A stretch of DNA of 64,000 nucleotides from Methyloferula stellata AR4 (GTDB taxonomy: Bacteria; Pseudomonadota; Alphaproteobacteria; Rhizobiales; Beijerinckiaceae): positions 512,081-576,080 of the forward strand of contig NZ_ARWA01000001.1 in assembly GCF_000385335.1 (NCBI RefSeq), given 5' to 3'. The notes under the pieces were generated by a model, which saw nothing but the letters and a program-made list of their open reading frames with translations, was not told the origin of the DNA and ran no database searches. Of this stretch, positions 33,032-49,807 are shown one piece after another (position 1 is the stretch's first letter; every line of letters starts with the position of its first letter). The position numbers and the translations under genes are program-made.

Positions 33032-36000
33032 GGCGCAACTCTCGGCGGTATGATGCGCCAGATGACGGCCGAGCGTTCGGCCGGATCGAGCGCGATTTGA
33101 TGGGTCTTGCCATAGAGCGTGAACCGGCCGCCGTTCAGAAGGTCCTCCGCCTCGATCGAGGCTTGATCCGGCAGGCCGAATTCCCAAAGCGGCACTTCAT
33201 AGGTGCAATCCTGGCGATAATGCGGGTCGAGATTGACGATCACCATCACGCAATTCGATTTATCCGGTGAAAATCGCGCGTAGGCGACGATCGCATCGTT
33301 CCAGGCATTGAGAAACAGGCACTGGCGGAAATCGTGCAGCGCCGGATTTTCGCGGCGGATGCGATTGAGCGCGGATATATGCGCCTTGATGTTGCCGGGA
33401 CGGTCATAATCCCAAGGCTTGATCTCGTATTTTTCCGAGTCCGCATATTCTTCCTTGCCGGGCAAGGCGCGGGCCTCGCAAAACTCGAAGCCGCTATAAA
33501 GTCCCCAATTGCTCGACAGGGTCGCAGCGAGAGTCGCGCGCACGATGAAACCCGCGCGGCCGCTCGTCTGCAGATAGATGGGATTGATATCCGGCGTATT
33601 CACGAAGAAATTCGGCCGGTAATAATCCGCCATCTCGCCCGCGAGTTCTTGCATATAGGCCATGATCTCAGGCTTGGTATTGCGCCACGTGAAATAGGTA
33701 TAGGACTGCTGGAAGCCGATTTTCGCGAGGCTCTTCATCATTTTGGGCCGTGTGAAGGCTTCTGCCAAAAATATGACATCCGGGTCTTCTCGATTGACCT
33801 CCGCAATCAGCCATTCCCAGAAGGGCAAAGGCTTCGTATGCGGATTATCCACCCGGAAAATCCGCACGCCTTCACGCACCCAGAACGTGACGATATCCTT
33901 CAAGGCCTCCCACAGCGCCGGCAGGCCTGCGCCGTAGAAATCGACATTGACGATATCTTCGTATTTTTTGGGCGGATTTTCGGCATATTGAATCGTGCCG
34001 TCGGGGCGCCAGGCGAACCATTCTGGATGCTGCCTGATCCACGGATGATCGGGCGAACATTGAACCGCGAAATCGAGCGCGATTTCCATGTCATAGTCCC
34101 GCGCGGCCCGCACGAGCGCGCGAAAATCCTCGATCCCGCCGAGCTGCGGATGGATAGCATCATGGCCGCCTAATTCATTGCCTATCGCATAGACGCTGCC
34201 AGGGTCGCTTTTGCCGGCGGTAAGCGCATTGTTGCGGCCCTTGCGGTTCGTCTTGCCGACCGGATGAATGGGCGGCAGATAGAGCACGTCGAAGCCGAGC
34301 TCGTGAACATAAGGCAGATGCGCGATCACGTCGCGAAACGTACCGTGGCGATTGACATCGTCGGTGACGGAGCGCGGAAAGAGTTCGTACCAGGCCGAGA
34401 AATTCGCCTTGCGACGATCGACCTCGACGGCAATCTCGTGGCCATAGACCGAAACGTTTCTGCGCGGACCGATCTTCGCCATCAGCAGGCGCGTCTCATC
34501 CGTGGAGAAAAGATCGATGCGGGCCGGATCAGCCGCTCCGGCTTTGGCAAGCAGCGCTTGCAATCTATCCTTGGTTTGCGGATCGCGGGTTTGCGCATCG
34601 CGGTTGTCCGCCTCGGGCGTGTCGAGCAAAGCCAGAATCTCCGCGGCTTCCACATCGACGGCGATCCCGGCGGCACGTTTCTTCTCCATCGCGTCGAGCA
34701 GCGTCGCGACGGGATCGCGCCAAGCCTCGATCGTGAAGCGATGTTCGGCCATAGCCTGAACCGTGAACGTCCCGCCCCAGCGGTCATTGTCGATAAAACG
34801 CATCGGCGCGCGCTGCCAGGACGCCTCATCCACCGTGCGCCACAAAATATCGGCGGCGATCTTTTCATGCCCATCGGTGAAAATATCGGCGGAGACTTCG
34901 ACAAGGTCGCCGACGACGCGTTTGATTTTGTGACGGCCGCAGTCAAGCTCCGGCGTGACGGCCTCGACGACAACGCGACCTTCGGCATCGGGCACGGGCC
35001 GCATCGCGTCGGGCGAAGACTTGGTCTTCTTGCCCTTGTCTTTTTTGTCAGGCTTATCCTTGGCCTTTTTATCTTTGCTCATGACCCCTGCCGCAGTGTC
35101 GCCGAGAAATAAGGTTCGCAGAGCCAGGTTACCGCCTGATAAAACATTCTCGGCCTTTGGCTTCACCATTCGCGCGATTTTCTGCCGTTCCATCTTCAGA
35201 AGCGCAGCGATCCGGGCAAAAGGACCATCCTTTTGCATAATGCCTTCGATCGGATGCGATAATTTCCGCCGCCAATTGGGATGGCCAAGGTCGCGGCCCG
35301 GGAGATTGGCCTGATTCACCTCGGCCGAGACGTCTTCGCATTGCACGGCGACAAGGCAGCATTGCGTCCGGGCGAGATAGCGCATGGCCGCTTCAAAGGG
35401 CGGATCGGCCGGAACGGCGGGCGAGGGCAATAAATTTTCTTCACTCAAACTTTCGCAAAATTGTTCCAATTCATGCGCCCGCTGAGCCCGTTCACGCTCC
35501 GCCGTCGCCGGGTCGTAAAGACCGACGGACTGCCGGACACCGACATCGACGCCGTGCCACCAGCCGGCAAAAGTCGGCAGATCATGCGTCGAGAATGTCG
35601 CAATCGCGTCGCGCGGATAGGCGGAGGGCCGTTTGAACGCGCCGTCCGCCTCGCGTTCGAAAGGCATCACGCGATAGCTCAGAATGCCTGCCTGCATGAT
35701 CGCTTCGGAGAAATGCTCCGGGCTGGTGCCGAGGTCTTCTGCGATCACGAGCGATTTCGCACGATGGCTTTCAAGCCGCAGAACGGCAAGCATGGCCTCG
35801 AACGGATAATCCACATAAGTGCCAAGCCTTGCCGGCGCGCCGAGCGGGATCAGAAACAGCCGCTGCAATTGAAACGCATGATCGATCCGTATCGCGCCGG
35901 CATGACGCATATTGGCGGCAATCAAACTCCGGAAGGCGGCGAGGCCGTCCGCTTCGAGCATGAGCGGATTGAGCGGCGGCAAACCCCAATCCTGCCCCTG

Positions 36001-37266
36001 AGTGGCAAGCGGATCCGGCGGTGCGCCGACCGAAAGACTGGTCGCGAAACGTTCGGGCGAAGCCCAGACTTCCGAACCGCCGCGATCGACGCCGACGGCA
36101 AGATCGCGGTAAAGCCCGATCTCCATGCCGCTCGCCTTGGCAGCGGCCTGCGCGGCACCCAACTGCCGATCGGCCAGCCATTGCAGCCAAATGTGGAAGG
36201 CGATGTCGGAGGCTGCTTCGCTCCTGTATTGGCGCACGGTCGATGATTGGGCCTGACGATATTCTTCCGGCCATTCGCCGAGCCACATCAGGCCTTCATC
36301 GCGAAACCGGTGCGCGAGCGCTTCGAAAGTCGCATGAAGCTCCAAACCCTCGCCACCCTCGCGGCGGAAGCTTTCGAACTCCGGATTCGTGGTTTCTGAA
36401 AAGTCCCGCCACAGCCGGTTGAGCAACTGCCGCTTCAAGGCCCAGACGGAGGCATGATCGACCAGAGGTGTTTCGCGAATCTGTTCGAGGAGAAACGCAA
36501 CATCGGGCTCCTGAAGATAATGAGCCGCCGCGCTTTGCGCGAAACCCGGCACCTCGCGCGGATCGATGAAGATCGGATCGATGAACAGGCGCGACGACGG
36601 CGAATAGGGTGAAAACTTGGTGCGATCGGCGGAAAAAAGTGCATGCAACGGGCTGAGCCCAAGAAAGGACGCGCCATAGGTTCCGCTCGCCTCGGCAAGC
36701 GAGGCGATGGCCGTAAGATCGCCGATCCCGCAATCGCGCGCCGAGCGCAAACCATAGACTTGCGCGGCAAGCCCGAAGCCGCAGGCGCCTTCCATGAAAG
36801 CTTGCGGCAGATAGGCGCGCCGCGGCGCCGAGATCAAAAGCGCTTTGGCCTTCTGCCGCCCGGCTTCGACATGAAGGTCGTGGTAGCCGGCCGGGCAGCC
36901 CGGAAGCTCGAATGAGGCCGCGCCATCTTCGAACGCGATCGTCGCCAAACCTTCGCTCGTCTTTCCCGTTTCGAGCGTGACCCGCCAGGAGAGAATCGCA
37001 TCCGGCGGATTGACCACCGCGACGCGTGTTCTTTCACCGGCCTCGCACGGAATGACGCGTGCGATCAAAGCACTCCGGAATACTTCCAGACGCGCGATAG
37101 AGTCCTCGAGGTCGCTTTGGGTCTCGACGGCAAATCCCAATCCGGCAAGAACCGCTCTGACGCCTTCTTCGCCCGGATCGAAGCCGACGCCAAAGGCGTC
37201 CCTATAGGTCCGCGCCACGCCGGCCTGTTCCGCAAGCCGCCACAGAAGGTCTGTTTCGTTGGTCAC
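33028..37266 (-). CDS. malQ-glgE: 4-alpha-glucanotransferase / alpha-maltosyltransferase fusion (MalQ-GlgE)
   Basis: One uninterrupted frame of 1412 residues. Residues 1 to about 715 are a complete GH77 MalQ: KFSPYSPSSRLFIDP, nucleophile in IRIDHAFQL (about 460), acid/base in VIAEDLGTS and FSTHDLPT. A Lys-rich linker starting MSKDKKAKDK (residue 729) leads into a complete GH13_3 GlgE: PIHPVGKTNRKGRNN, nucleophile in FRVDNPHTKP (about 1140), acid/base in FLAEAFTRP. MalQ rearranges malto-oligosaccharides; GlgE adds maltosyl units from maltose-1-phosphate to alpha-glucan. The start is GTG 37266, just before the first conserved MalQ residues. The internal Met729 codon (35082) is preceded by AGGGG, but only 2 bases away, so separate GlgE initiation is possible yet weak. 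I know both enzymes as separate genes in most bacteria. Confidence 0.93.
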   Translation of the reverse strand: MTNETDLLWRLAEQAGVARTYRDAFGVGFDPGEEGVRAVLAGLGFAVETQSDLEDSIARLEVFRSALIARVIPCEAGERTRVAVVNPPDAILSWRVTLETGKTSEGLATIAFEDGAASFELPGCPAGYHDLHVEAGRQKAKALLISAPRRAYLPQAFMEGACGFGLAAQVYGLRSARDCGIGDLTAIASLAEASGTYGASFLGLSPLHALFSADRTKFSPYSPSSRLFIDPIFIDPREVPGFAQSAAAHYLQEPDVAFLLEQIRETPLVDHASVWALKRQLLNRLWRDFSETTNPEFESFRREGGEGLELHATFEALAHRFRDEGLMWLGEWPEEYRQAQSSTVRQYRSEAASDIAFHIWLQWLADRQLGAAQAAAKASGMEIGLYRDLAVGVDRGGSEVWASPERFATSLSVGAPPDPLATQGQDWGLPPLNPLMLEADGLAAFRSLIAANMRHAGAIRIDHAFQLQRLFLIPLGAPARLGTYVDYPFEAMLAVLRLESHRAKSLVIAEDLGTSPEHFSEAIMQAGILSYRVMPFEREADGAFKRPSAYPRDAIATFSTHDLPTFAGWWHGVDVGVRQSVGLYDPATAERERAQRAHELEQFCESLSEENLLPSPAVPADPPFEAAMRYLARTQCCLVAVQCEDVSAEVNQANLPGRDLGHPNWRRKLSHPIEGIMQKDGPFARIAALLKMERQKIARMVKPKAENVLSGGNLALRTLFLGDTAAGVMSKDKKAKDKPDKKDKGKKTKSSPDAMRPVPDAEGRVVVEAVTPELDCGRHKIKRVVGDLVEVSADIFTDGHEKIAADILWRTVDEASWQRAPMRFIDNDRWGGTFTVQAMAEHRFTIEAWRDPVATLLDAMEKKRAAGIAVDVEAAEILALLDTPEADNRDAQTRDPQTKDRLQALLAKAGAADPARIDLFSTDETRLLMAKIGPRRNVSVYGHEIAVEVDRRKANFSAWYELFPRSVTDDVNRHGTFRDVIAHLPYVHELGFDVLYLPPIHPVGKTNRKGRNNALTAGKSDPGSVYAIGNELGGHDAIHPQLGGIEDFRALVRAARDYDMEIALDFAVQCSPDHPWIRQHPEWFAWRPDGTIQYAENPPKKYEDIVNVDFYGAGLPALWEALKDIVTFWVREGVRIFRVDNPHTKPLPFWEWLIAEVNREDPDVIFLAEAFTRPKMMKSLAKIGFQQSYTYFTWRNTKPEIMAYMQELAGEMADYYRPNFFVNTPDINPIYLQTSGRAGFIVRATLAATLSSNWGLYSGFEFCEARALPGKEEYADSEKYEIKPWDYDRPGNIKAHISALNRIRRENPALHDFRQCLFLNAWNDAIVAYARFSPDKSNCVMVIVNLDPHYRQDCTYEVPLWEFGLPDQASIEAEDLLNGGRFTLYGKTHQIALDPAERSAVIWRIIPPRVAP

Positions 37267-37322
37267 GCACTGCTTTCGATCATTGTCGGGCGAAGCCCGG
37301 TTCGGGTGTTCCGGCCTGACGT

Positions 37323-39422
37323 TCAAGGCCGTGCCGCGGGCACATGCTGGAAGAGCATCAGGCAACGCGAAGCGAGCGGAAAGGATCCGCCTGCCTTCAG
37401 AAGCGCTCCCGGTTTCTTGACGAGCCCTTCCGGCTCGGCTGAATGAAAAATCGGCATGAAACCGTCACAGGGAAAGTCCACCGGCAGTTGAAAGGTCACG
37501 TCCTCGGGCGCCGCGTTGAAGAGAACCAGAAAACGTTCGCGGTCTTGCGCATCATTGCCAAATTGCAGCCCCAAAACGCGCCGATCCCCGGCCAGCCAAT
37601 CGTCCTGGCTCATCTCGCGTCCTTCCGGCGCAAGCCAGTAAATATCTCTCTGATCCCTGCCTGCCAGGGTTTCGCCGGTGAAAAATGTGGGGTGGCGAAA
37701 TGCGTCGTACCGGCGCCGCAGCGCCAGGAGATTGCGGACATAGGCGAGGAGCTCGGAGTCACCGGCGTCGGACCAGTTCATCCAGCTCAATTCATTGTCT
37801 TGGCAATAGGCATTATTATTGCCTTTCTGGCTGCGCGCGAACTCGTCGCCCATGCCGAACATCGGGGTGCCGGTCGAAAGCAACAGCGTCGCGAGAAGAT
37901 TACGCCGTTGGCGTGCTCGCAAGGCAAGAATGCCCGGATCCTCCGTCTCGCCTTCGGCGCCGCAATTCCATGAGAGATTATTGCCATGGCCGTCGCGATT
38001 ATCTTCGCCATTGGCTTCATTATGGCGCTCGTTGTAGCTGACGAGATCCTGTGTCGTGAAACCGTCATGCGAGACGATAAAATTGACGGAGGCCCATGGC
38101 CTGCGCCCGGCATAGGCATAAAGCTCGGCCGAGCCCGCGAGCCTCGCCGCGAGATCCGGCAGCTTGCCGGGATCGCCGCGCCAGAAAGTCCGCACCGTGT
38201 CGCGATATTTATCGTTCCATTCGCCCCAGCCGGGCGGAAAGCCGCCGACGCGATAGCCCCCTTCGCCGAGATCCCAAGGCTCGGCGATAAGCTTCACGCG
38301 CGATAGGACCGGATCCTGACCGATGGCGCGTAAGAAACCGGCGCGATCGGTGAAGTCATAAGGGTCGCGCGCGAGCGTCGAGGCCAGATCGAAGCGGAAG
38401 CCATCGACGTGATAGGCCTCGACCCAATGGCGTAGGCTGTCGAGCACCATTTGCAGCACGCGGGGATGCGCGAGATCGAGCGTGTTGCCGCATCCCGTGC
38501 TGTCCCATGAAAAGCGGGGATTGTCGGGCGCGAGCTTGTAATAGCTCGCATTGTCGATACCGCGGAAGCTGAGCGTCGGCCCAAGATGATTGCCTTCGCA
38601 TGTATGGTTATAGACGACATCGAGAATGACTTCGATATTGGCTTCATGCAAAGACGCGATCGCGGCTTTGAAGCCGAGTACGCCATCCTCGCCGAAATAG
38701 CGCGGCTCCGGCGCGAAAAAGCCAAGCGTCGAATAGCCCCAATAATTGCGAAGCTGCTTTTCGACGAGAAAGCGGTCATCGACGAAAGCATGGACCGGCA
38801 AGAGCTCGATCGCGGTGATGCCGAGCTTGACCAGATGATCGATCACGGCCGGATGGCCAAGCGCCGAATAGGTGCCACGCAATTCCTCCGGCAGATCCGG
38901 ATGCAGTTGCGTGAGCCCTTTGACATGGGCTTCGTAGATGACCGTATCGCGCCACGGCAGCAGGCGTCGGCGATCGCCATCCCACGTCTGGGCGGGATCT
39001 TCGACGACCGCTTTGGGCATCATGGCCGCGCTGTCACGCCGGTCGGGGGCGAGATCGCCGCGCGGCGCGCCGACGCGATAGCCATAAAGCGCATCGTGCC
39101 AATGAATGCGCCCGAAAATCTGCCGCGCATAGGGATCGAGAAGGAGCTTATGCGGATTGAACCTGTGCCCGGCCGCGGGATCATAAGGACCATAAACGCG
39201 GTAGCCGTAAAGCTGACCAGGTCTTATCCCACGCACATGGGCATGCCAGACTTGGTCCGTGCGGCCCGGCAGCGAGATGCGTTTCGTTTCGCGGCGGCCG
39301 GAAGGCTCGAACAGGCAGAGCTCGACCTTTTGCGCATGCGCCGAAAACAGAGCGAAATTGACGCCCTTACCATCCCACACCGCTCCGAACGGAGCGGGGC
39401 TGCCCTCCTCGACCATCAGCAT
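37323..39422 (-). CDS. glgX: Glycogen debranching enzyme GlgX
   Basis: The 699-residue GH13_11 protein has an N-terminal CBM48 (PFGAVWDGKGVNFALFSAHA), nucleophile Asp in DGFRFDLASTL (about residue 342), acid/base Glu in KLIAEPWDLG and the debranching signature KGNNNAYCQDNELSWMNW. It hydrolyses alpha-1,6 branches. It lies 22 bases after otsA and 56 bases before malQ-glgE, in the same operon. The second codon pair allows ATG 39416 as start. Confidence 0.95.
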   Translation of the reverse strand: MLMVEEGSPAPFGAVWDGKGVNFALFSAHAQKVELCLFEPSGRRETKRISLPGRTDQVWHAHVRGIRPGQLYGYRVYGPYDPAAGHRFNPHKLLLDPYARQIFGRIHWHDALYGYRVGAPRGDLAPDRRDSAAMMPKAVVEDPAQTWDGDRRRLLPWRDTVIYEAHVKGLTQLHPDLPEELRGTYSALGHPAVIDHLVKLGITAIELLPVHAFVDDRFLVEKQLRNYWGYSTLGFFAPEPRYFGEDGVLGFKAAIASLHEANIEVILDVVYNHTCEGNHLGPTLSFRGIDNASYYKLAPDNPRFSWDSTGCGNTLDLAHPRVLQMVLDSLRHWVEAYHVDGFRFDLASTLARDPYDFTDRAGFLRAIGQDPVLSRVKLIAEPWDLGEGGYRVGGFPPGWGEWNDKYRDTVRTFWRGDPGKLPDLAARLAGSAELYAYAGRRPWASVNFIVSHDGFTTQDLVSYNERHNEANGEDNRDGHGNNLSWNCGAEGETEDPGILALRARQRRNLLATLLLSTGTPMFGMGDEFARSQKGNNNAYCQDNELSWMNWSDAGDSELLAYVRNLLALRRRYDAFRHPTFFTGETLAGRDQRDIYWLAPEGREMSQDDWLAGDRRVLGLQFGNDAQDRERFLVLFNAAPEDVTFQLPVDFPCDGFMPIFHSAEPEGLVKKPGALLKAGGSFPLASRCLMLFQHVPAARP

Positions 39423-39444: not shown

Positions 39445-41016
39445 TCAGTGGCTCAGCGAGAACCTGTGAAGCGCGCTGGCGAGCCAGGAGCCGGCGCCTT
39501 CTTCCACCGTGCCATTTTCATTGGCGATTCCAGGCGCAAGACCGTCTTTCAGAAACGCGGCAGGTTCGACAGGCCCAACCAAGCTGCTATCTCCGCCAAG
39601 CTGCTCCAGAAAGCGCTGAACCCAGGTGTCGACCGTGTTGAGGCGCAAGATCTCAATCGCCTCGGTCCAACGCGCCTTGCGCTCGTCGAGCGGCATCTCG
39701 AATGCGCGAGCGATCGCCGTCGCCGTCGCCTCGATATCGTAAGGATTCACGATCAAAGCGCTCTTCAGCTCATAGGCCGCGCCGGCAAAGCGCGACAGAA
39801 TGAGGACGCCCGGATCGTCCGGCGATTGCGCCGCGACATATTCCTTGGCGACGAGATTCATGCCGTCACGCAGAGGCGTCACAAGGCCAACGCGCGCCAG
39901 CCGGAAGAGCCCGGCCAAGGCGGAGCGGCTCATTGTCTTGTTGCTGTAGCGGATCGGCGTCCAATCGACATCGCCGAGCTTGCCGTTGATATGGCCGACA
40001 TGTTCGGCCACTTCGCGCTGCATATCGACATATTCCGGGATGTCCGAACGCGACTTGGGTGTGATCTGCAACATGGTGATGCGCGCTTTGGCGGCTTCGG
40101 GCGAGCGTTCGATAAAGGTCGAAAACGCATCGATCCTACGCCTTATGCCTTTCGAATAATCGAGCCGGTCGACGCCGATCACCAATTGGCGGCCTTCGAG
40201 GCTCGAGCGCATGCGTCTGACGATCGCATTGCGTTCGGCGATCTGGGCTTCGTGGCTGAAGCCGGCCGTATCGATACTGATCGGGTGGGCCGCGACGGTG
40301 AAACGCCGCCCAAAAGCCTCGCAGAGACCGCCGTCGATGACGCGCCCCGCTTTTGCATGGGTGAAGCAGCCGATGAGATTTTCCGCATCGCCGGGAGTCT
40401 GCACGCCGATCAGATCATAGGCGGCGAAGCCCCGGAGAATGCGCTCGTGAGACGGCAGTGCCATCGCGATTTCGTGCGACGGCCACGGAATATGGAGGAA
40501 GAAACCGATGCGATTGGCGATGCCGAGCTGGCGCAGATAATCGGCGACCGGGATCAGATGATAATCGTGAATCCAAACGATATCTTCCGGCTTGATCAGC
40601 TTGGCGAGCCTACGGGCGAACATTTCATTGACCCGGAAATATCCGGCGACATCGCGCCGCGAAATTTCCGCCAGATCAAGGCGGTAATGACAGACCGGCC
40701 AAAGAACGCGATTGGAAAAGCCATGGTAATATTCGTCGACGTCGCGGCGTGACAGATCCATGACGGCGTAATTGATCGCGCCGCGCGTATGGATTTGCAG
40801 TTGCGGATCGTTTTCGGCGCCGATTTTACCCGACCAGCCGAACCAGATCCCGCCGCGCGTCTTCAGCGCCTCTTCGAGCGCAACCGCCAAGCCGCCGGCA
40901 GCGGGCACGCTGCTCGCTGAGGGAACCGAGACTCTGTTTGAAACTATAATCAATCTGCCACTGGTGCCGCCACGGCCCGTAAGCGGAAGTTGTTTCAAAG
41001 CTTCAACATGAGCCAT
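39445..41016 (-). CDS. otsA: Alpha,alpha-trehalose-phosphate synthase OtsA
   Basis: The 523-residue GT20 enzyme begins with a 20-residue extension, then RLIIVSNRVSVP and AAGGLAVALEEAL. Substrate and donor motifs are WFGWSG, VWIHDYHLIPVADYL (about 147), and VDRLDYSKGIRRRIDAF. It makes trehalose-6-phosphate from UDP-glucose and glucose-6-phosphate. It is first in the five-gene alpha-glucan operon. No OtsB phosphatase domain or gene is in the window. A stress-type promoter candidate lies 39-64 bases upstream. Confidence 0.95.
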   Translation of the reverse strand: MAHVEALKQLPLTGRGGTSGRLIIVSNRVSVPSASSVPAAGGLAVALEEALKTRGGIWFGWSGKIGAENDPQLQIHTRGAINYAVMDLSRRDVDEYYHGFSNRVLWPVCHYRLDLAEISRRDVAGYFRVNEMFARRLAKLIKPEDIVWIHDYHLIPVADYLRQLGIANRIGFFLHIPWPSHEIAMALPSHERILRGFAAYDLIGVQTPGDAENLIGCFTHAKAGRVIDGGLCEAFGRRFTVAAHPISIDTAGFSHEAQIAERNAIVRRMRSSLEGRQLVIGVDRLDYSKGIRRRIDAFSTFIERSPEAAKARITMLQITPKSRSDIPEYVDMQREVAEHVGHINGKLGDVDWTPIRYSNKTMSRSALAGLFRLARVGLVTPLRDGMNLVAKEYVAAQSPDDPGVLILSRFAGAAYELKSALIVNPYDIEATATAIARAFEMPLDERKARWTEAIEILRLNTVDTWVQRFLEQLGGDSSLVGPVEPAAFLKDGLAPGIANENGTVEEGAGSWLASALHRFSLSH

Positions 41017-41899: not shown

Positions 41900-43129
41900 G
41901 TGACCAAGATCAACAGCCTCGCTGACTTCGCAAACAAACGCTTTCGCCATGCCGGAAAAGCCTATCTCGAAAAGGGCGATCCGTTCTTCTGGGAAATCGA
42001 CAGTATGCGCCAGGCGGCGGAGGCGCGCGGAACGCATTTCGTCAGCTTCGCGAATTACGATTATCTGGGGCTCTCCGCGCATCCGGCCGTGAAGGCCGCC
42101 GCGACCGAAGCTGTCGACAAGCAAGGCGTAGGCGCCCTCGCCTCGCGTCTCGTCGGCGGCCAGCGGTCGATCCACCGTCCTTTCGAGGATGCGCTTGCAA
42201 GCTTCGTCGGCACCGAGGCGGTCTTGGCGCTAGTCAGCGGCTACCTGACCAACATGACCGTCATCGCCCATATCATGGGCTCGCGCGATGGCCTCTTCCT
42301 CGACGAACTCTCGCATAACAGCATCGTCAGCGGCGCCAAGAGCGCCTCTTCTGACAAAATCCACTTCCGCCATAACGATCTCGACCATCTCGATTATCTG
42401 CTGACGCAGAAACGTGCGGACTATAAGAACGTCCTCATCGTCGCTGAAAGCCTCTACAGCATGGACGGCGACATCACCGATCTCGCCCGTCTCGTCGAGA
42501 TCAAGGAGCGTCACGGGGCCTGGCTTCTCGTCGACGAGGCCCATTCGATCGGCGTGCTCGGCGCCGACGGCCGCGGCCTTTGCGAATATGCGGGCATCGA
42601 TCCCAATCGCGTCGATCTCATCATCGGCACCTTGTCCAAGTCCTTTGCCTCCTGCGGCGGCTTCGTCGCCGGCAAGACCGAGGTCATCGACTGGCTGCGT
42701 TACACACTGCCGGGATTCGTCTATAGCGTCGGGCTCTCGCCCGTGATCATCGCCGCGGCGAAATGCGCGCTGGAACTCATGCAAAAGGAGCCCTGGCGGA
42801 TCGCGCGGCTCCATCGCAACGCCGAACTCTTCATCGAATTGGCGCATGAGGCGGGGTTGAACACGGGGCCCTCGATCGGTGGCGGCGGCGTCGTTCCGAT
42901 TCTCTTTTCCGATAGTCACGAGACGCTCGCAGCCTCGCGCCATCTGATGGCCAATGGCTATTACGTGCCGCCGATCATCCAAATCGGCGTTCCGAAAGAT
43001 CAGCCGCGTCTGCGCTTCTTTCTGTCGGCGCAGCATACGGAAGCCGAGATCCACGGCGTCATCGACCTCCTCGCAAAACGCGAGAGCGCCCATACCGCGC
43101 CCACCCATTCTCTCAACGCCGCTACCTGA
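41900..43129 (+). CDS. Alpha-oxoamine synthase, serine palmitoyltransferase-like
   Basis: The 409-residue PLP enzyme of fold type I belongs to the ALAS/KBL/BioF/SPT family: FANYDYLGLSAHPAV, GSRLVGG-type SRLVGGQRSIH, LVDEAHSIGVLGADGRG and the PLP lysine in GTLSKSFASCGG (about residue 248). The family condenses an amino acid with an acyl thioester and loses CO2. Sequence alone does not separate SPT from 5-aminolevulinate or 8-amino-7-oxononanoate synthase. The adjoining ceramide-synthase-like and ceramide-desaturase-like genes point to SPT (serine + acyl thioester to 3-ketosphinganine). The start is GTG; the nearby ATG is out of frame. Confidence 0.85.
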   Translation: MTKINSLADFANKRFRHAGKAYLEKGDPFFWEIDSMRQAAEARGTHFVSFANYDYLGLSAHPAVKAAATEAVDKQGVGALASRLVGGQRSIHRPFEDALASFVGTEAVLALVSGYLTNMTVIAHIMGSRDGLFLDELSHNSIVSGAKSASSDKIHFRHNDLDHLDYLLTQKRADYKNVLIVAESLYSMDGDITDLARLVEIKERHGAWLLVDEAHSIGVLGADGRGLCEYAGIDPNRVDLIIGTLSKSFASCGGFVAGKTEVIDWLRYTLPGFVYSVGLSPVIIAAAKCALELMQKEPWRIARLHRNAELFIELAHEAGLNTGPSIGGGGVVPILFSDSHETLAASRHLMANGYYVPPIIQIGVPKDQPRLRFFLSAQHTEAEIHGVIDLLAKRESAHTAPTHSLNAAT

Positions 43130-43296
43130 CCGCGAGACGATTTCTGCCGCACGGCCGCGATCTCGGACGGCGGCCAAGCAGCCTTCCGTCTTTGCCATGT
43201 TACGGCCGTCACATAAATGCTTGGCGCTGACATAATTTTGCGCCTAAAGGCGTGAAGGGTCCGAGCCGAAGCTTTGAGCAGGATCGAAACCGGCAC

Positions 43297-44433
43297 ATGA
43301 GTATAATTGAGATCACGCCTGTCGATGGACTGAGAAGTTTTCTCGCCTTCTGCAAAGTCCCACGCGTCATCTATCGCGGCATGACCGGCTTCGCTCCCTC
43401 TCTCGATGCGGAACGCTGGACGCTTTACGCCAAACCGCTCAACCCGCATTTCAAGCTCGTCGATCAGCAAGCCTGGATTGCCCGTCGCGACGGTAAGCTC
43501 GCCGGCCGCATCACGGCACAAGTCTATAAGGATGGCATGGTTCCGCGCGAAGCTTCGCGCGCGCAATTCGGCAGCCTCGATGCGATCGAAGACGAAGAGG
43601 TCGTCGCCAAATTGACGGCAACGGCCGAAGCCTGGCTTAAAACCCGCGGCGAGACCCTCGTCCACGGACCTTTTTCTCCGTCGATCAACGGCGAGATGGG
43701 CATGCTCGTCGAAGGGTTCGATGCGACGCCCATGTTTCTCACCCCGTGGCATCCGTCCTATCTTCCGGCCTTGCTCGAACGGCAAGGCTATCGCAAGGCG
43801 CGCGATGTCGTCTCCTATCGTTATGATATCGGCCCGGTCGATCGCGAAGCCGAATCAAAAATCATGGCACGGCCGGAGTGGCGCGAAAGGCTGAAGATCC
43901 GCACGCTCGATTTGAAAAGCCTGAAGGCCGAATCCAAGATCATCGTCGATATTTTCAACGATGCCTGGAGCCAGAATTGGGGCTTCGTGCCCTTCACGCT
44001 CGAAGAATTTATGTCGATCGCCGATTCATTGAAATATATCATGCCGCCCGAAGGCGGGTTCATGATCGAGCTCGACGGCGAAGCCCAAGCGTTCGGCGTC
44101 TTTCTTCCCAATCTGCATGAGATCACGGCCGATCTCGACGGCAAATTATTTCCCTTCGGACTGCCGCGGCTGATCTCGCGAATGCGCAATCACGTGTATA
44201 AGTCCGGACGCATTGTCCTTTTCGGTATCCGTCGAGACCTGCAAAAGAAAGCCATTGGCGGCGTCGTCCTTCTGGCTTTCATCGAGGAATGCCGGCGGCG
44301 CAGCAGGAACGTCTCATTCGAACATGCCGAATTCGGCTGGATTCTTGAAAACAATATGGGCATGCGCAAACCGATCGAAATGTCGGGCGGGAAGACCGAC
44401 AAAATCCACCGGGTCTACGAAAAGGCTCTCTAG
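43297..44433 (+). CDS. GNAT-fold N-acyltransferase, candidate bacterial ceramide synthase
   Basis: The 378-residue soluble protein has a duplicated acetyltransferase-like layout: first half with WIARRDGKLAGRITAQV and HGPFSPSINGEMGMLVEGF, second half with NDAWSQNWGFVPFTLEEF and GMRKPIEMSGGKTDKIHRVYEKAL. Proteins of this pattern are annotated in Rhizobiales as hypothetical or 'dATP pyrophosphohydrolase'. From memory, the Caulobacter bacterial ceramide synthase is a protein of this kind encoded near spt; I could not align them. It would transfer an acyl chain from CoA or ACP to the amino group of a long-chain base. ATG 43297 is preferred to 43252 because it begins the conserved region. It is 167 bases after the synthase and in the same direction. 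Confidence 0.7.
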   Translation: MSIIEITPVDGLRSFLAFCKVPRVIYRGMTGFAPSLDAERWTLYAKPLNPHFKLVDQQAWIARRDGKLAGRITAQVYKDGMVPREASRAQFGSLDAIEDEEVVAKLTATAEAWLKTRGETLVHGPFSPSINGEMGMLVEGFDATPMFLTPWHPSYLPALLERQGYRKARDVVSYRYDIGPVDREAESKIMARPEWRERLKIRTLDLKSLKAESKIIVDIFNDAWSQNWGFVPFTLEEFMSIADSLKYIMPPEGGFMIELDGEAQAFGVFLPNLHEITADLDGKLFPFGLPRLISRMRNHVYKSGRIVLFGIRRDLQKKAIGGVVLLAFIEECRRRSRNVSFEHAEFGWILENNMGMRKPIEMSGGKTDKIHRVYEKAL

Positions 44434-44572
44434 CCTTGATCGAGATCATCCCCGGGAGGGTTTTCTCGGTTGATGGTGCCAGCGAGGAAATGATGATGCG
44501 CAACCCTCTCCCGGTTGGAGAAGATTACGCAGAGTCTTATGTTTATTGGCTCCGAAAACAGGCGGCGGAAGA

Positions 44573-45616
44573 ATGCAGTCAAACATTCACAGCGTTGACT
44601 TTGCCCCCAGCGCGGCTGCCGCGAAGCCCGCTTTGACGTTTTTGTCCGCGAAGCCGCAACGCCCGCACCCTTTAAGGCGGCGCGCGATTCTGGCGGCGCA
44701 TCCCGACGCCGAGCGCCTCATCGGCCACGACCCGCTCACGGCCGTCATCACGCTCGCCGTCGTTCTCGGCCAAACCGCGATCGCGGGCTTTCTCGGTCAT
44801 CTCGGCGCCGGCTATTGGTGGGCGGCCCTGATCCTCGCTTATTGCGTCGGCGCCTTCGCCAATCACGCCATGTTCGTCGTCATCCATGACGCGACCCATA
44901 ATTGCGTCTTCGCCGGCAATACCGCGAACAAATGGGTCGCAATCCTCGCCGATCTGCCGAATGCGGTTCCGACCGCGATGGGCTTTCGCTGCTATCACAT
45001 GAAGCATCATTCGCATCTCGGCGATTATGATTATGATGCCGATCTGCCGAGCCGCTGGGAAGCCCGCTTCTTCGGCAATAGCGCCTTCGGAAAAGCTGCC
45101 TGGTTCTTTTTCTTCCCGGCGCTGCAACTGTTTCGTCTGAACCGGCTCAGGGGCACGGTCCCGATGTGGGGCCGCTGGACCTTCATCAACGGCGCCTGCA
45201 TCATTGCCTATGACGTTGCGATCCTCGCGCTCTTTGGCCCGAACGCGCTGTTTTATCTGTTCATGTCGTTCTGGTTCTCAGTCGGCGGGCTGCATCCGCT
45301 CGCGGCGCGCTGGGTACAGGAACATTTCACCTTCGATCCCGAGCAGGAAACCAATGATTATTACGGGCCGCTGAATCTCATCGCGCTCAATATCGGCTAT
45401 CATAACGAGCATCATGATTTTCCCGATATTCCCTGGCGCCGCCTGCCGGATTTGAAGAAGATCGCGCCGGAATATTACGACGGGCTGCGGACGCATCCGT
45501 CCTGGTTCGGCCTCTTCGCGCAATTCATCGTCGATCCTCGCTACACGCTATTCACGCGGGTCGATCGCAGCAGCCTGCGCGCCCAGGCAACGCAAGCGGC
45601 CGGACCGAAACCTTAA
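44573..45616 (+). CDS. Sphingolipid Delta4-desaturase-like (DEGS-type) fatty acyl desaturase
   Basis: The 347-residue membrane protein has an N-terminal RRRAILAAHPDAERLIGHDP segment like the Lipid_DES domain of DEGS proteins, four or more membrane helices and three histidine boxes: HDATH (about residue 106), HMKHH (about 143) and HNEHH (about 279). The last box lies in GYHNEHHDFPDIPWRRLP, followed by KKIAPEYYDGL and HPSW, which closely parallels eukaryotic dihydroceramide Delta4-desaturase. The enzyme would be a di-iron desaturase or hydroxylase acting on a sphingoid base. ATG 44573 is chosen over a TTG nine codons upstream. It ends 3 bases from the facing glycosyltransferase gene. Confidence 0.85.
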   Translation: MQSNIHSVDFAPSAAAAKPALTFLSAKPQRPHPLRRRAILAAHPDAERLIGHDPLTAVITLAVVLGQTAIAGFLGHLGAGYWWAALILAYCVGAFANHAMFVVIHDATHNCVFAGNTANKWVAILADLPNAVPTAMGFRCYHMKHHSHLGDYDYDADLPSRWEARFFGNSAFGKAAWFFFFPALQLFRLNRLRGTVPMWGRWTFINGACIIAYDVAILALFGPNALFYLFMSFWFSVGGLHPLAARWVQEHFTFDPEQETNDYYGPLNLIALNIGYHNEHHDFPDIPWRRLPDLKKIAPEYYDGLRTHPSWFGLFAQFIVDPRYTLFTRVDRSSLRAQATQAAGPKP

Positions 45617-45619
45617 AGA

Positions 45620-46906
45620 TCACGACAGGGTGGATTTCGGCGTGCGCTTGAATTGCTCGCGGCGCCCGAAAGCCGTTTGCAGGATTTTCGGCGTATTCGA
45701 CACGCTGACATAGATCATCAACGGCGTCAGCGACGCGGCGGTGATCGCATATTCCTTCAAGGTGCCGCGGCGCAGGACGATATAGGGCATCAGCGTCAGG
45801 CCGACGGCGACGAAGAAGATCAGGACAAACAGAAAGCCGATGACCGGCAGATAGACTCTCGGGTCGCCACCGCGCAGCAGCAGGCATGCGATAAGAGAGA
45901 CCGTGGCGATCGCGACGCAAGGATAGAAAGCCTGCACGAGGATCAAAAAGGTCGCCGAGAGCTTGCGGCCGAAGGACCAGCTTGTGCTTGTCCAGATCGG
46001 CGTCATCAACTTATGCGCGACCTGCACGAAACCATTCGACCAGCGTCTCTGCTGAACCCGCCAATGCCTTACGCGTTCGGGAACGAGACCGGGAACCGGC
46101 GGCTCCATCAGAAAGAGCCCATGCCATCCGGCAAGCCCGGCGCGAATGGTGAGATCGAGATCCTCGCAAAGCGAATCCGCCGACCAACCGCCCGCCGCGT
46201 CGACTGCCGCGCGGCGCCACACGCCGCCCGTCCCATTGAACTGGAACAGCCAGCCGCCGCGAAAGCGCGCCGCCTGCTCCATCGCAAAATGCGCATCGAG
46301 CAGCATGCCTTGCGCACGCGTCAGCCAATTGGTTTTGTAATTTGAAAATTCGCAGCGCGATTGCGCGAAGCCCGCCTTCGGATCCGCGAGCATCGCCGGC
46401 ACGATGGTGCGCAGCCAATCGGACGGCGGCCGGAAATCGACATCGAGCATGGCGATGAAGGGCGCGTCGCTGACTTTCAATCCAGCTGCGAGCGCACCCG
46501 CCTTGAAACCCGTCCGGTCGGTGCGGAAGAGATGCTGGACGTCGAAACCTTTGTCGCGCAATTCCTGCGCGAGAGCCGCGGCGACTTTCGGTGTCTCATC
46601 CGTACTGTCGTCGAGAAGCTGAATATGCAGTTTCGATTGCGGCCAATCGAGCGCCGCTGCCGCGCGCAAGGCGCCAGAGACGACATTCGGTTCGTTGAAG
46701 ACCGGAATCTGCACGAGAACATGCGGCAGATCCGCATCCGCCAAGCCGCTCGGCTGCGGTTTGCTCCGCCATCCGCTGCCGCTGACCAGTTCCATCAGAT
46801 TGATGCCGATCAGTGCGAGAAACGCACCGGCTACGATCACAAGCCCGAGGATCGAAATCGTCAAACTGATCTCGAAAACCAATCGGATGAGCTCAATTAC
46901 GATCAA
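45620..46906 (-). CDS. Membrane GT2 glycosyltransferase, CslA/cellulose-synthase-like
   Basis: About 428 residues: an N-terminal membrane helix, a cytosolic GT-A domain with LPHVLVQIPVFNEPNVVSG, LLDDSTDET, the DVDFRP metal site, CEDLDLTIRAG and the acceptor motif QQRRW, then four to five C-terminal membrane helices. This is the layout of CslA-type glucomannan synthases and related lipid glycosyltransferases. The start is uncertain: TTG 46906 is used because the upstream frame up to 47041 runs through a dispersed repeat. Facing the ceramide-type genes end to end, it may glycosylate the lipid, or it may make a short beta-glycan. Confidence 0.78.
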   Translation of the reverse strand: MIVIELIRLVFEISLTISILGLVIVAGAFLALIGINLMELVSGSGWRSKPQPSGLADADLPHVLVQIPVFNEPNVVSGALRAAAALDWPQSKLHIQLLDDSTDETPKVAAALAQELRDKGFDVQHLFRTDRTGFKAGALAAGLKVSDAPFIAMLDVDFRPPSDWLRTIVPAMLADPKAGFAQSRCEFSNYKTNWLTRAQGMLLDAHFAMEQAARFRGGWLFQFNGTGGVWRRAAVDAAGGWSADSLCEDLDLTIRAGLAGWHGLFLMEPPVPGLVPERVRHWRVQQRRWSNGFVQVAHKLMTPIWTSTSWSFGRKLSATFLILVQAFYPCVAIATVSLIACLLLRGGDPRVYLPVIGFLFVLIFFVAVGLTLMPYIVLRRGTLKEYAITAASLTPLMIYVSVSNTPKILQTAFGRREQFKRTPKSTLS

Positions 46907-46946
46907 CGGCCGCGACCCCCCGGTTGGTCCGATTAGATAATTCAGC

Positions 46947-47131: not shown

Positions 47132-47578
47132 TCACACGGACGGACTGCGATGCGGCAAAAGCTTGGCCTCGGCGACGAGCGCCAGATCGCGTCCCTGGCC
47201 ATGCGCCATCAAACGCAGAATGATGCCGGGGCTTTCGCCCGTGGTGACCCGTATCACGCGGCCGGAAACCTCGAAAGTCTGCCCAGCCAGAACCGGCCGC
47301 AGGAATTTCGCGGAAAGATTGACCAGCGCCAGATCCGGCCGCCATGCCAGAATCAAGGGCTCAAAATGGCCCATCATGAGCATGCCGTGGATCGGCCGCT
47401 CCTCAAGTCCGGCCCTTCGCGCGATGGCCGGATCGAGATGCAAAGGATTGTCGTCGCCGGAGGCACGCGCATAGCGGGCGAGCGCATCACCGTCAAAGGG
47501 ACCGCAGCAGCGCTTGGGCAGTTGCTCGCCGACCTGCGGCCAATCGATCGCCGCGGCACACGCATGATTGGCGTTCAT
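47132..47578 (-). CDS. MaoC-like hotdog hydratase/dehydratase, catalytic subunit
   Basis: The 148-residue hotdog protein carries the hydratase 2 motif ARASGDDNPLHLDPAIAR followed by PIHGMLMMGHF, where Asp and His of the D-x4-H arrangement form the active site. Such enzymes (de)hydrate (R)-3-hydroxyacyl thioesters. The ATG overlaps the stop of the preceding hotdog gene (ATGA), so the two are likely a heterodimer like split MaoC or HadAB dehydratases. Neighbouring ACP and ketoacyl synthase genes suggest an ACP-bound substrate. Confidence 0.8.
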   Translation of the reverse strand: MNANHACAAAIDWPQVGEQLPKRCCGPFDGDALARYARASGDDNPLHLDPAIARRAGLEERPIHGMLMMGHFEPLILAWRPDLALVNLSAKFLRPVLAGQTFEVSGRVIRVTTGESPGIILRLMAHGQGRDLALVAEAKLLPHRSPSV

Positions 47579-48039
47579 GGCGCGCTCCCCGCCGCGCTGA
47601 TGATCCGCAGGATCGTCTCCATTCGAAGACAAGGCTCATCGCGGGCGGTGACGACCGAAGTCCGCACGATCAAGCGCTCCGGATTCATCTGATGATCGAT
47701 GTCGGCGGTCATCAGATAATCTTGATCCGCATCGAGTGGGGTCTCGTAAGTGAAGCTTTGCGATTCATGAACGGCGATGCCGCCGGCTTCCTTCAATTTT
47801 ATTTCGAGGACGCGCCAAAGCTCGGGCACAGTCAGCCAGCGCATCGGAAATGTATGCGGTACCTGAATAGACTTCGCCCGGCCCTCTGCAGAGCAGTCGT
47901 CGACGGACCAGCCCGTCTCACAGCGGAAGGCTTCGATATCGGCACAGGCCGTCGAGACGCGAAAGGGACCAAGCCGCAAAGCGCCCGAGCCCTCCGGGTC
48001 CGGCGCCCCGGAGGAATGCATATTCGTAGCGTCCTGCAT
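47575..48039 (-). CDS. Hotdog protein, non-catalytic MaoC N-terminal-domain type subunit
   Basis: A 154-residue product resembling the MaoC_dehydrat_N / FAS1-type dehydratase half: IQVPHTFPMRWLTVPELW, a strand ESQSFTYETPLDADQDYL and LIVRTSVVTARDEPCLRMET. The hydratase Asp/His motif is missing, as expected for the structural half of a two-subunit dehydratase. GAGGAC lies 5 bases before the ATG. It directly precedes the catalytic subunit. Confidence 0.72.
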   Translation of the reverse strand: MQDATNMHSSGAPDPEGSGALRLGPFRVSTACADIEAFRCETGWSVDDCSAEGRAKSIQVPHTFPMRWLTVPELWRVLEIKLKEAGGIAVHESQSFTYETPLDADQDYLMTADIDHQMNPERLIVRTSVVTARDEPCLRMETILRIISAAGSAP

Positions 48040-48276: not shown

Positions 48277-48319
48277 GCATGACCTCACCCGAAAAGTCTG
48301 CAACTTTTCGGGATCATGC
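48277..48319. repeat. GCATGAT / CCGAAAAG palindromic element, copy 2b
   Basis: GCATGACCTCACCCGAAAAG, then TCTGCAACTTTTCGGGATCA. This copy overlaps the last codons and the stop codon of the ketoacyl synthase gene; on the leftward transcript it forms a strong CCGAAAAGT hairpin at the stop codon. Confidence 0.7.
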
Positions 48320-49537
48320 TGCCTCAATCTTCTTTACGACGAGGACCGCATTGATCCCGCCGAAGGCGAAAGAATTCGACATGGCAAAATGAATCGGCAG
48401 AGGCCGCGCTTCATTCGGGATCGCATCGACCGGGCATTTTTCGTCTGGCACGGCCCAATTGATCGTCGGCGGCGCCACATTGTCCAAAACGGCGCTGATC
48501 GTGACCGCGAGTTCAAGCGCGCCGCCCGCACCCAATCCATGGCCATGAATGGGTTTCGTCGACGAAACCGGAAGCACTGGCGCCTTCTTGCCGAAGACCA
48601 TCCCGATCGCTTCGGATTCGGTCAGATCATTGATGACGGTTCCGGTGCCATGCGCATTGACGTAGTCGATCGCATCAGGGGGGATGCCGGCATCCTGCAA
48701 GGCATAGCGCATCGCGGACGCGGCACCGAAAGCATCCGGACGGACATGGTCCTTGGCGTCGCTCGATGTGCCATAGCCCGCCAGTTCGACGATGGGCACA
48801 GCACCACGCGCGCGTGCAAGTTCCTCGGTTTCGAGAATGAAAACGCCGGCGCCGGCGCCGATGACCATGCCATTGCGGTTTTTCGAAAAGGGTCGGCAAT
48901 AATCCGGGCTGAGGACACGCAAGGCCTCCCAGGCCAGCATGGTGCCGCTCGTGATGCAATCCTCGGTACCGCCGACGATCGCCCGGTCGACGAGACCGAA
49001 GCGGATCATCTGAGCGCCGAGGCCGATCGCCTGCGTGGCCGAGGAACAGGCACTGCCGACCGCGAGACATGGTCCCGTCGTTCCAAAGCGCATGCTGACA
49101 TTGGACGGACAGGAACTCGGGATAAGTTTCGGAATCGTCAGAAGTTCGGGCCGGCTATTATTGATGAAGATCTGATGATGGCCTTCTTCGATCGTCGTCA
49201 TCCCGGCGATGCCGGTTCCGATGATGGCGGCGGTCCGCGGTCCTGCGAGAATGTCGCGCGGGATGCCCGATTGGGCAACGGCCTCATCCGCGGCGACGAG
49301 CAGATATTGCGTGACTGGATCCAGGAACGCGATCAGCTTGGCGTCGAGATAGGTTGCCGGATCGAAATCACGGACCTGCGCCGCGATTTTAATGCGCCCC
49401 TTGTGAGGCCGTGGAAACCGGGCTTCCGCCACACACGACCGCCCGTCCCGCGTAGCATGCCATAGAGGTTTTGCCCCGACACCGGCCGCGGAAACCGCGC
49501 CCATGCCGGTGATAACGACCCGTCTTGTCGAATCCAT
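48314..49537 (-). CDS. Beta-ketoacyl-ACP synthase (KAS II-like)
   Basis: The 407-residue thiolase-fold enzyme starts RRVVITGMGAVSAAGVG and has the complete Cys-His-His triad: Cys in VGSACSSATQAIG (about residue 165), His in VNAHGTGTVINDLTE and His in STKPIHGHGLGAGG. The last motif differs from the usual KSMTGHLLGA, and the sequence is more like accessory or secondary-metabolism KAS than housekeeping FabF. It elongates acyl-ACP with malonyl-ACP. It starts immediately after the ACP stop. A dispersed repeat supplies its stop codon. Confidence 0.88.
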   Translation of the reverse strand: MDSTRRVVITGMGAVSAAGVGAKPLWHATRDGRSCVAEARFPRPHKGRIKIAAQVRDFDPATYLDAKLIAFLDPVTQYLLVAADEAVAQSGIPRDILAGPRTAAIIGTGIAGMTTIEEGHHQIFINNSRPELLTIPKLIPSSCPSNVSMRFGTTGPCLAVGSACSSATQAIGLGAQMIRFGLVDRAIVGGTEDCITSGTMLAWEALRVLSPDYCRPFSKNRNGMVIGAGAGVFILETEELARARGAVPIVELAGYGTSSDAKDHVRPDAFGAASAMRYALQDAGIPPDAIDYVNAHGTGTVINDLTESEAIGMVFGKKAPVLPVSSTKPIHGHGLGAGGALELAVTISAVLDNVAPPTINWAVPDEKCPVDAIPNEARPLPIHFAMSNSFAFGGINAVLVVKKIEAA

Positions 49538-49807
49538 TCAGCTTTTTTCTTTGATGATATAGGCGGCAATCGCGTCGATCAGGCTCTTTACGTCCTTGGC
49601 TTCATGGAACGGGCCATCCATCGGGATATAGACGTCGAATTTTTCTTCGATCGCCGTCAAAATCATCACGATATCGATCGATTTCAGATCCAGACTCTCG
49701 ATCGTTGCGTCCATAGTGACCTTTTCGCGATCCACCATTCCTTCGCTAATGATCACCTCGGTGATCTGATTGACGAGTTCCGCTTGGTCGAGAACTTTGG
49801 TTTCCAC
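49538..49807 (-). CDS. Acyl carrier protein
   Basis: The 89-residue acidic, helical protein has the phosphopantetheine serine in LDLKSIDIVMILTAIEEKF, where the usual DSL is KSI. A dedicated ACP next to the KAS and the facing spt-like gene parallels the separate ACP encoded with spt in Caulobacter, an observation I recall but did not check. The start is GTG with GGGAG upstream; no ATG is available. It is probably the first gene of the leftward ACP - KAS - hotdog set. Confidence 0.85.
   Translation of the reverse strand: METKVLDQAELVNQITEVIISEGMVDREKVTMDATIESLDLKSIDIVMILTAIEEKFDVYIPMDGPFHEAKDVKSLIDAIAAYIIKEKS

Follow-up and report, generated by a model that had tools for sequence, protein, structure and literature searches.

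A DEGS-family desaturase encoded beside putative ceramide genes in the bacterium Methyloferula stellata AR4

INTRODUCTION

In eukaryotes, ceramide differs from dihydroceramide by a 4,5-double bond. Plants and fungi synthesize glucosylceramide through the steps of serine palmitoyltransferase (SPT), ceramide synthase, Delta4-desaturase, fatty acid (FA) 2-hydroxylase and a ceramide glucosyltransferase of glycosyltransferase family 21 (GT21). For the bacterium Caulobacter crescentus, two reports describe a ceramide pathway with the proteins Spt, bCerS and CerR (PMC11087976, PMC11324152), and one of them ascribes the hydroxylation of Caulobacter sphingolipids to CC_0202, a DesA-family protein (PMC11324152). 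Here we analyse a 64-kb stretch of the genome of the alphaproteobacterium Methyloferula stellata AR4 (the window), in which the genes for an alpha-oxoamine synthase (AOS), a GNAT-fold acyltransferase (GNAT) and a desaturase related to human DEGS1 (DES) follow one another. Our results suggest that this locus probably encodes the central part of a bacterial sphingolipid pathway that ends in a eukaryote-type step at C4.

Bacteroides thetaiotaomicron reportedly does not produce d18:1 sphingosine (PMC7235224). In the moss Physcomitrium, base desaturation enables glycosylceramide formation, according to PMC8318264. Among the top-ranked titles, abstract openings and passages of the open-access literature, we found no report of a bacterial DEGS-type desaturase; given the Pfam family name, databases may already label bacterial members as such.

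RESULTS

A conserved set of three co-directional genes

The window is part of a genome of 4.24 Mb on one contig. On its + strand lie the genes for the pyridoxal phosphate (PLP)-dependent AOS, a putative SPT (41900-43129, 409 aa, GTG start), for GNAT, a putative bacterial ceramide synthase (43297-44433, 378 aa; longest open reading frame (ORF) from 43252), and for DES, a membrane desaturase of the DEGS family and putative dihydroceramide Delta4-desaturase and/or C4-hydroxylase (44573-45616, 347 aa; longest ORF from 44546). Translation of the three ORFs gave zero internal stops, and the intergenic gaps are 167 bp (AOS-GNAT) and 139 bp (GNAT-DES). An earlier interpretation of the window that was made from the letters alone (the sequence-only reading) had described a consecutive, co-directional trio, which we find intact. 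The desaturase motifs that it quoted are also present (RRRAILAAHP at residue 35, HDATH at 105, HMKHH at 142, GYHNEHHDFP at 275 and KIAPEYYD at 296).

A scan of named genomes returned at least 595 pattern stretches, from which 459 DES relatives were confirmed; the figures for loci given here refer to the best 80 of these 459. They comprise 38 Pseudomonadota, 24 Verrucomicrobiota, 14 Bacteroidota, three Ignavibacteriota and one Acidobacteriota locus. The trio was co-directional within 7 kb in 30/38 Pseudomonadota, 15/24 Verrucomicrobiota and 1/1 Acidobacteriota loci, and its conservation in these named loci indicates that the arrangement is not due to chance. AOS and GNAT were both found on the locus stretch in 33/38 Pseudomonadota, 16/24 Verrucomicrobiota and 1/1 Acidobacteriota, and in 0/14 Bacteroidota and 0/3 Ignavibacteriota, where it should be noted that several of the 80 stretches end at contig ends.

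The desaturase belongs to the DEGS family

DES matched the Pfam families FA_desaturase (PF00487; 97.4 bits, cut-off 29.7) and Lipid_DES (PF08557; 30.3 bits, cut-off 23), the latter being the N-terminal domain of sphingolipid Delta4-desaturases. At E<=0.001, Lipid_DES was detected in all 50 members of the DES family (the window DES and 49 others, a non-redundant choice from 91 ORFs) and in none of nine other FA desaturases from the same order. With NCBIfam, far sub-threshold matches alone were obtained (carotenoid enzymes, DesA and GntB). Of the three histidine boxes, two are the HDATH and HMKHH motifs given above and the third is HNEHH (277). Residues H105, H109, H145, H146, H277, H280 and H281 are invariant in the 50 sequences, and H142 is conserved in at least 90%.

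The eukaryotic yardstick was human DEGS1 alone, a single long-branched sequence; in a Pfam check, it gave 74.3 bits with Lipid_DES. The window DES is 36% identical to this sequence over 306 aa (188 bits). Against the 91 bacterial DES ORFs, DEGS1 scored 147-245 bits, with the highest values among Bacteroidota members, compared with 25-35 bits against 13 other desaturases; the window DES scored 33-57 bits against the same 13. In a maximum likelihood tree of 44 rows (30 bacterial DES, DEGS1 and the 13 other FA desaturases), the bacterial DES and DEGS1 formed a 31-row clade (support 96/99) separate from the others. The sequence-only reading had proposed a DEGS-type enzyme and had named a place among acyl-lipid desaturases as the outcome that would contradict it. 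Since DES falls with DEGS1 and carries Lipid_DES, the assignment survives this test. Within the clade, DEGS1 had a long branch and paired with a sequence from Saprospiraceae (92/91); a topology with DEGS1 outside all bacterial DES gave a p value of 0.142 in the approximately unbiased test (p-AU), so the nesting of the eukaryotic protein is not significant. We conclude that DES is a DEGS-family protein with a putative role in the conversion of dihydroceramide.

The structure predicted for DES was helical (pLDDT 86.9), and its fold matches in the PDB were weak: two chains of chloroplast Ycf2/Orf2971-FtsHi complexes occupied ranks 1-2, and AlkB and stearoyl-CoA desaturase ranks 3-6. At the sequence level, no PDB relative was found at E<=0.1. 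A viral source of DES was also considered and dropped, as 41 pattern stretches were checked and contained 0 relatives.

The oxoamine synthase and the acyltransferase

The AOS matched Pfam Aminotran_1_2 with 148.5 bits. Its best matches among PDB sequences were the SPTs 3a2b and 8guh (216 bits), followed by a chain annotated as BioF/KBL (204 bits). Aligned with SPT, KBL, BioF and ALAS, the AOS retains the PLP lysine (TLSKSF), the Asp/His pair (VDEAHS) and the stacking histidine (ELSHNS), residues that are common to the whole superfamily. The residue after the PLP lysine is Ser in the window AOS and in three of four SPTs, and Thr in the fourth SPT and in the relatives of the window AOS; it is Ala or Gly in KBL, BioF and ALAS, and Ala also in the Verrucomicrobiota AOS. 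This serine may be taken as a hint, and only a hint, of an SPT. In a tree, the AOS grouped with its counterparts from other DES loci (100/98); the Verrucomicrobiota AOS and the alphaproteobacterial SPTs sampled fell elsewhere. BioF (441.6 bits, cut-off 426.45) and ALAS (633.4 bits, cut-off 338.55) are encoded by separate genes of the same genome.

GNAT gave no family at E<=0.001 in Pfam and NCBIfam, and nothing better than E 0.087 against PDB sequences. The closest PDB folds to its AlphaFold model (pLDDT 83.7) were GNAT acetyltransferases including tandem-GNAT proteins (best E 2.5e-13); also matched were N-myristoyltransferases and, in a structure with bound N-myristoyl-histidine, a histidine acetyltransferase. 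A GNAT homologue is located directly 3' of the SPT in locus L158 (673.6 bits with NF047600, cut-off 640), the sole SPT above this cut-off in DES genomes. Within the fetched 20 kb, a GNAT profile match was present in 7/12 alphaproteobacterial SPT-type loci and in 11/18 AOS/SPT-type loci overall, and of the two loci whose SPT exceeds the alpha-type cut-off, L190 has such a match. GNAT homologues beside or near SPTs are what is expected of an acyltransferase like Caulobacter bCerS (CC_1154; PMC11087976). The likeness to ceramide synthase claimed earlier is supported by predicted fold and by gene neighbourhood, and we regard GNAT as a putative bacterial ceramide synthase (N-acyltransferase).

Distribution and co-occurrence

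The DES family is widespread in bacteria. Its holders among the Pseudomonadota include methanotrophic Beijerinckiaceae/Methylocystaceae (genera Methylocapsa, Methylocella, Methylocystis and Methylosinus), and the nearest named relatives of the window DES come from Methylocapsa, Methylocella, Methylovirgula and Beijerinckia. As many loci are metagenome-assembled, an odd phylum such as the single Acidobacteriota may be misbinned. PF08557 was found in at least 4/398 genomes drawn from the phylum, in many of which only 18 first-look candidates were scored. A fifth match (G104) was dropped because the frames there are without desaturase. Genome G302 encodes a Lipid_DES desaturase (L044 9181-10230) that is 42% identical by tblastn; it belongs to family f34, the source of both SPTs over the alpha-type cut-off.

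Among 60 relatives, nine have DES at 53% identity or more, and 11 others have weak desaturase matches only. GNAT is present in 9/9 DES genomes, compared with 6/51 others (Fisher p 3.4e-7), and AOS at 50% identity or more in 8/9 of them, compared with 1/51 others (Fisher p 3.1e-8); these p values are uncorrected for kinship and the 50% line was chosen after the data had been seen. In the next set of DES genomes, which repeats G004 and G054 from the 60, GNAT was found in 22/23. An AOS with at least 478 bits in the Bacteroidota SPT model, in one case above the cut-off, was encoded by 16 of 20 genomes of this set, from Bacteroidota, Ignavibacteriota and Alphaproteobacteria.

Gene order in Verrucomicrobiota differs from that in the window, and a FA_hydroxylase gene lies directly 3' of DES in 17/24 of these loci. 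L109 has the order DES, FA_hydroxylase, AOS, CDP-alcohol phosphotransferase, GNAT and a second CDP-alcohol-phosphotransferase-domain protein; an NTP transferase and a short-chain dehydrogenase (SDR) are encoded behind these genes on the opposite strand. The same members in another arrangement favour one pathway. Together, the two phosphotransferase-domain proteins and the NTP transferase surround AOS and GNAT in L109 (11026-17964), which suggests that such a locus may serve phosphorylated (inositol- or glycerol-type) ceramides. In L118 and L120, from other Alphaproteobacteria, AOS-DES is followed by two more genes, with GNAT ~8 kb beyond; in L118 the two extra genes encode GT4-type glycosyltransferases.

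Neighbouring operon and candidate partner genes

A convergent operon on the - strand ends 3 bp past DES. Its first gene encodes a putative dedicated acyl carrier protein (ACP; 49538-49807; PP-binding 20.6 bits, just below the cut-off of 20.8) that is 70-88% identical in nine syntenic named loci. The genes that follow encode a FabF-like beta-ketoacyl-ACP synthase (KAS; 48314-49537; ketoacyl-synt 154.3 bits) with the Cys-His-His motifs SACSS, HGTGT and KPIHGH, a conserved small protein (47575-48039) and a MaoC-type dehydratase (47132-47632; MaoC_dehydratas 54.9 bits). The small protein gave no family match in Pfam or NCBIfam at E<=0.001 and has syntenic homologues with 32-47% identity in 10 named loci; it resembles a hotdog protein by eye only. 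The last gene encodes a family 2 (GT2) membrane glycosyltransferase (45620-46924; frame open to 47041, start uncertain), which scored 68.9 bits with Glyco_trans_2_3 and 31.1 with Glyco_transf_21 (cut-off 21.7) and is syntenic in relatives. Ten of the 80 loci, each from Pseudomonadota, have the GT2/MaoC/KAS/ACP cluster beside DES; the contig of L055, one of the ten, stops before KAS and ACP.

The FA_hydroxylase-family protein encoded 3' of DES in Methylocystis silviterrae has a single match in the M. stellata genome, at 57% identity. The matching gene adjoins that of a GT21-family glycosyltransferase (L227 6426-7550; Glyco_transf_21 171.8 bits, cut-off 21.7), which is not HpnI (178.9 with the HpnI model, below the cut-off of 310). 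This pair is ~1 Mb from the window locus. In Methylocapsa acidiphila, AOS, GNAT, DES and GT21 are co-directional and are followed by a convergent FA_hydroxylase-profile match; overall, GT21 occurred on the locus stretch in 3/38 Pseudomonadota loci (L048, L074 and L076). In the related locus L037, a classical SDR is encoded inside the ACP/KAS/GT2 cluster. The best M. stellata match to this SDR (position 3738610, 48% identity) may be a 3-keto reductase or a chain-elongation reductase.

Elsewhere in the window, a single 1445-aa frame (33028-37365, - strand) encodes a 4-alpha-glucanotransferase (malQ 387.9 bits, residues 154-712). Its 3' part resembles the maltosyltransferase GlgE by eye, a possible fusion, and it adjoins glgX (37323-39422) and otsA (39445-41016).

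DISCUSSION

The gene identities at family level, their conserved linkage and their co-occurrence are established by the results above. For substrates, step order, each reaction and the product, we infer the following course. From an acyl chain and an amino acid, for which serine is the likeliest candidate, the AOS would form a 3-keto long-chain base by condensation. The acyl donor could be ACP- or CoA-bound; its probable carrier is the ACP encoded in the neighbouring operon, whose KAS, MaoC and ACP functions would tailor or supply the chain. A short-chain dehydrogenase encoded elsewhere would reduce the 3-keto base, and GNAT would N-acylate the reduced base to dihydroceramide. DES would then act at C4 of the long-chain base, where a 4,5-double bond would give ceramide and a 4-hydroxyl group phytoceramide. 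Two further steps may be optional, 2-hydroxylation of the amide-linked acyl chain by the FA_hydroxylase-family enzyme and addition of a sugar by the GT21-family enzyme. On our best reading, the product would be a C4-desaturated or C4-hydroxylated, perhaps glycosylated, ceramide. The sequence-only reading is thereby partly supported: it appears largely right for DES and GNAT, the role of the AOS follows from context, and pathway and product are predictions. That reading did not cover the convergent ACP/KAS/dehydratase/GT operon, and the remote hydroxylase/GT21 pair and the broad distribution emerged only with computational tools.

Several observations weigh against a sphingolipid pathway of this kind. 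According to a survey of type strains of Alphaproteobacteria from 2020, sphingolipids seem to be confined to Sphingomonadales, with negatives rarely reported (PMC7179689), a statement that the Caulobacter sphingolipids contradict. The cluster in the window does not include a 3-ketosphinganine reductase. The trio lies within 7 kb in none of the 14 Bacteroidota and three Ignavibacteriota loci, where DES stands apart. GNAT also occurs in 6/51 relatives without DES, G054 has DES and GNAT and no close AOS, and L191, whose SPT exceeds the alpha-type cut-off, is without GNAT in 20 kb. The AOS obtained its top NCBIfam score with bioF (342, below the cut-off of 426) and stayed under the curated SPT cut-offs (NF047599, 297.7 of 500; NF047600, 295.1 of 640; NF047603, 212.9 of 670). 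Its deep placement allowed a union with SPTs (p-AU 0.382) as well as with BioF (p-AU 0.271), neither being rejected. Finally, six relatives without GNAT and without close DES (G003, G009, G025, G026, G045 and G047) encode an AOS that is 42-46% identical, from which it follows that this AOS branch has another use, too.

The bioF score and the six relatives could be taken to mean that the AOS makes some other amino-ketone, for example a signal or cofactor precursor, and that GNAT and DES serve another lipid. We consider this very improbable: BioF and ALAS are encoded by separate genes, GNAT homologues adjoin SPTs, and the trio recurs in another order in Verrucomicrobiota. The grouping of the AOS with ALAS/BioF, which had been named as an outcome contrary to the SPT claim, was not recovered, and the AOS did not group with known SPTs either. 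Being below the SPT cut-offs and compatible in its deep placement with SPTs and BioF alike, it is the weakest link of the pathway and is a putative SPT by context. An AOS that is outside every curated SPT model and in a clade with those of other DES loci might use alanine, glycine or cysteate instead of serine, so that GNAT and DES would act on a 1-deoxy- or sulfono-sphingoid backbone; 1-deoxy and sulfono-1-deoxy ceramides have been reported from the Black Sea (PMC11334938). This is unlikely in our view, since the AOS scored lower with the cysteate-C-fatty acyltransferase 28eh (140.6 bits) than with SPTs, and since linked loci carry glycosyltransferase or phosphotransferase genes, which would want a 1-hydroxyl group.

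For DES, the Bacteroidota and Ignavibacteriota loci in which it lies away from AOS and GNAT would fit an ordinary acyl-lipid desaturase that acts on an amide-linked or other acyl chain and was placed here by accident. The presence of Lipid_DES in 50/50 family members and in 0/9 other desaturases, the clade with DEGS1, the linkage and the co-occurrence make this improbable. A less remote alternative is that DES is mainly a C4-hydroxylase of the DEGS2 type and yields phytoceramide rather than Delta4-unsaturated ceramide. DEGS2 converts dihydroceramide to phytosphingosine-type backbones, as described in PMC11765627, and the two activities cannot be told apart by membership in the DEGS family alone; with DEGS1 as the one yardstick, nothing decisive speaks against hydroxylation. 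We nevertheless rate a mainly hydroxylating DES as rather unlikely, and prefer a pathway whose finishing step at C4 may be of either kind.

Given the combination of AOS, GNAT and DES, some bacteria may well produce ceramides like those of animals or plants. With its linkage to ceramide-type genes in Pseudomonadota and Verrucomicrobiota, the DES family points to genera in which ceramide desaturation can be tested. It also has consequences for unsaturated ceramides as markers of eukaryotes and bears on the origin of the eukaryotic gene. More speculatively, aerobic methanotrophic and soil bacteria might make Delta4-unsaturated, 2-hydroxylated glycosylceramides by a route that parallels the plant and fungal one with bacterial AOS and GNAT, and eukaryotic DEGS might have been drawn from, or share its origin with, the bacterial family. 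The latter idea arises because Bacteroidota members score best with DEGS1; as a whole, the proposal is doubtful.

Like eukaryotic DEGS1 and DEGS2 (PF08557 and PF00487), the window DES has a Lipid_DES N-terminal domain and three His boxes, and it has the blocks HPx7EH, ETxxYYGPLN and GYHNEHHDFP in common with DEGS1. Unlike them, it is bacterial and encoded beside AOS and GNAT, and its activity is putative. The pathway of C. crescentus resembles the window locus in its core pair, in which an AOS is joined by an acyltransferase that lacks membrane helices. No DEGS homologue is named for that pathway in the passages of PMC11087976 and PMC11324152, unlike the window locus, and CerR is NDUFA9-like, whereas the SDRs linked to window-type loci are classical SDRs. 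Moreover, the window AOS is in another clade than the sampled alphaproteobacterial SPTs.

In comparison with glucosylceramide synthesis in plants and fungi, the bacterial N-acyltransferase is a GNAT and not a LAG1-type ceramide synthase, the AOS is a putative SPT, and sugar addition and acyl hydroxylation are suggested by family names only. As in plants and fungi, family-level or functional counterparts of the five steps are found in one bacterial genome, and in Methylocapsa acidiphila these counterparts are contiguous.

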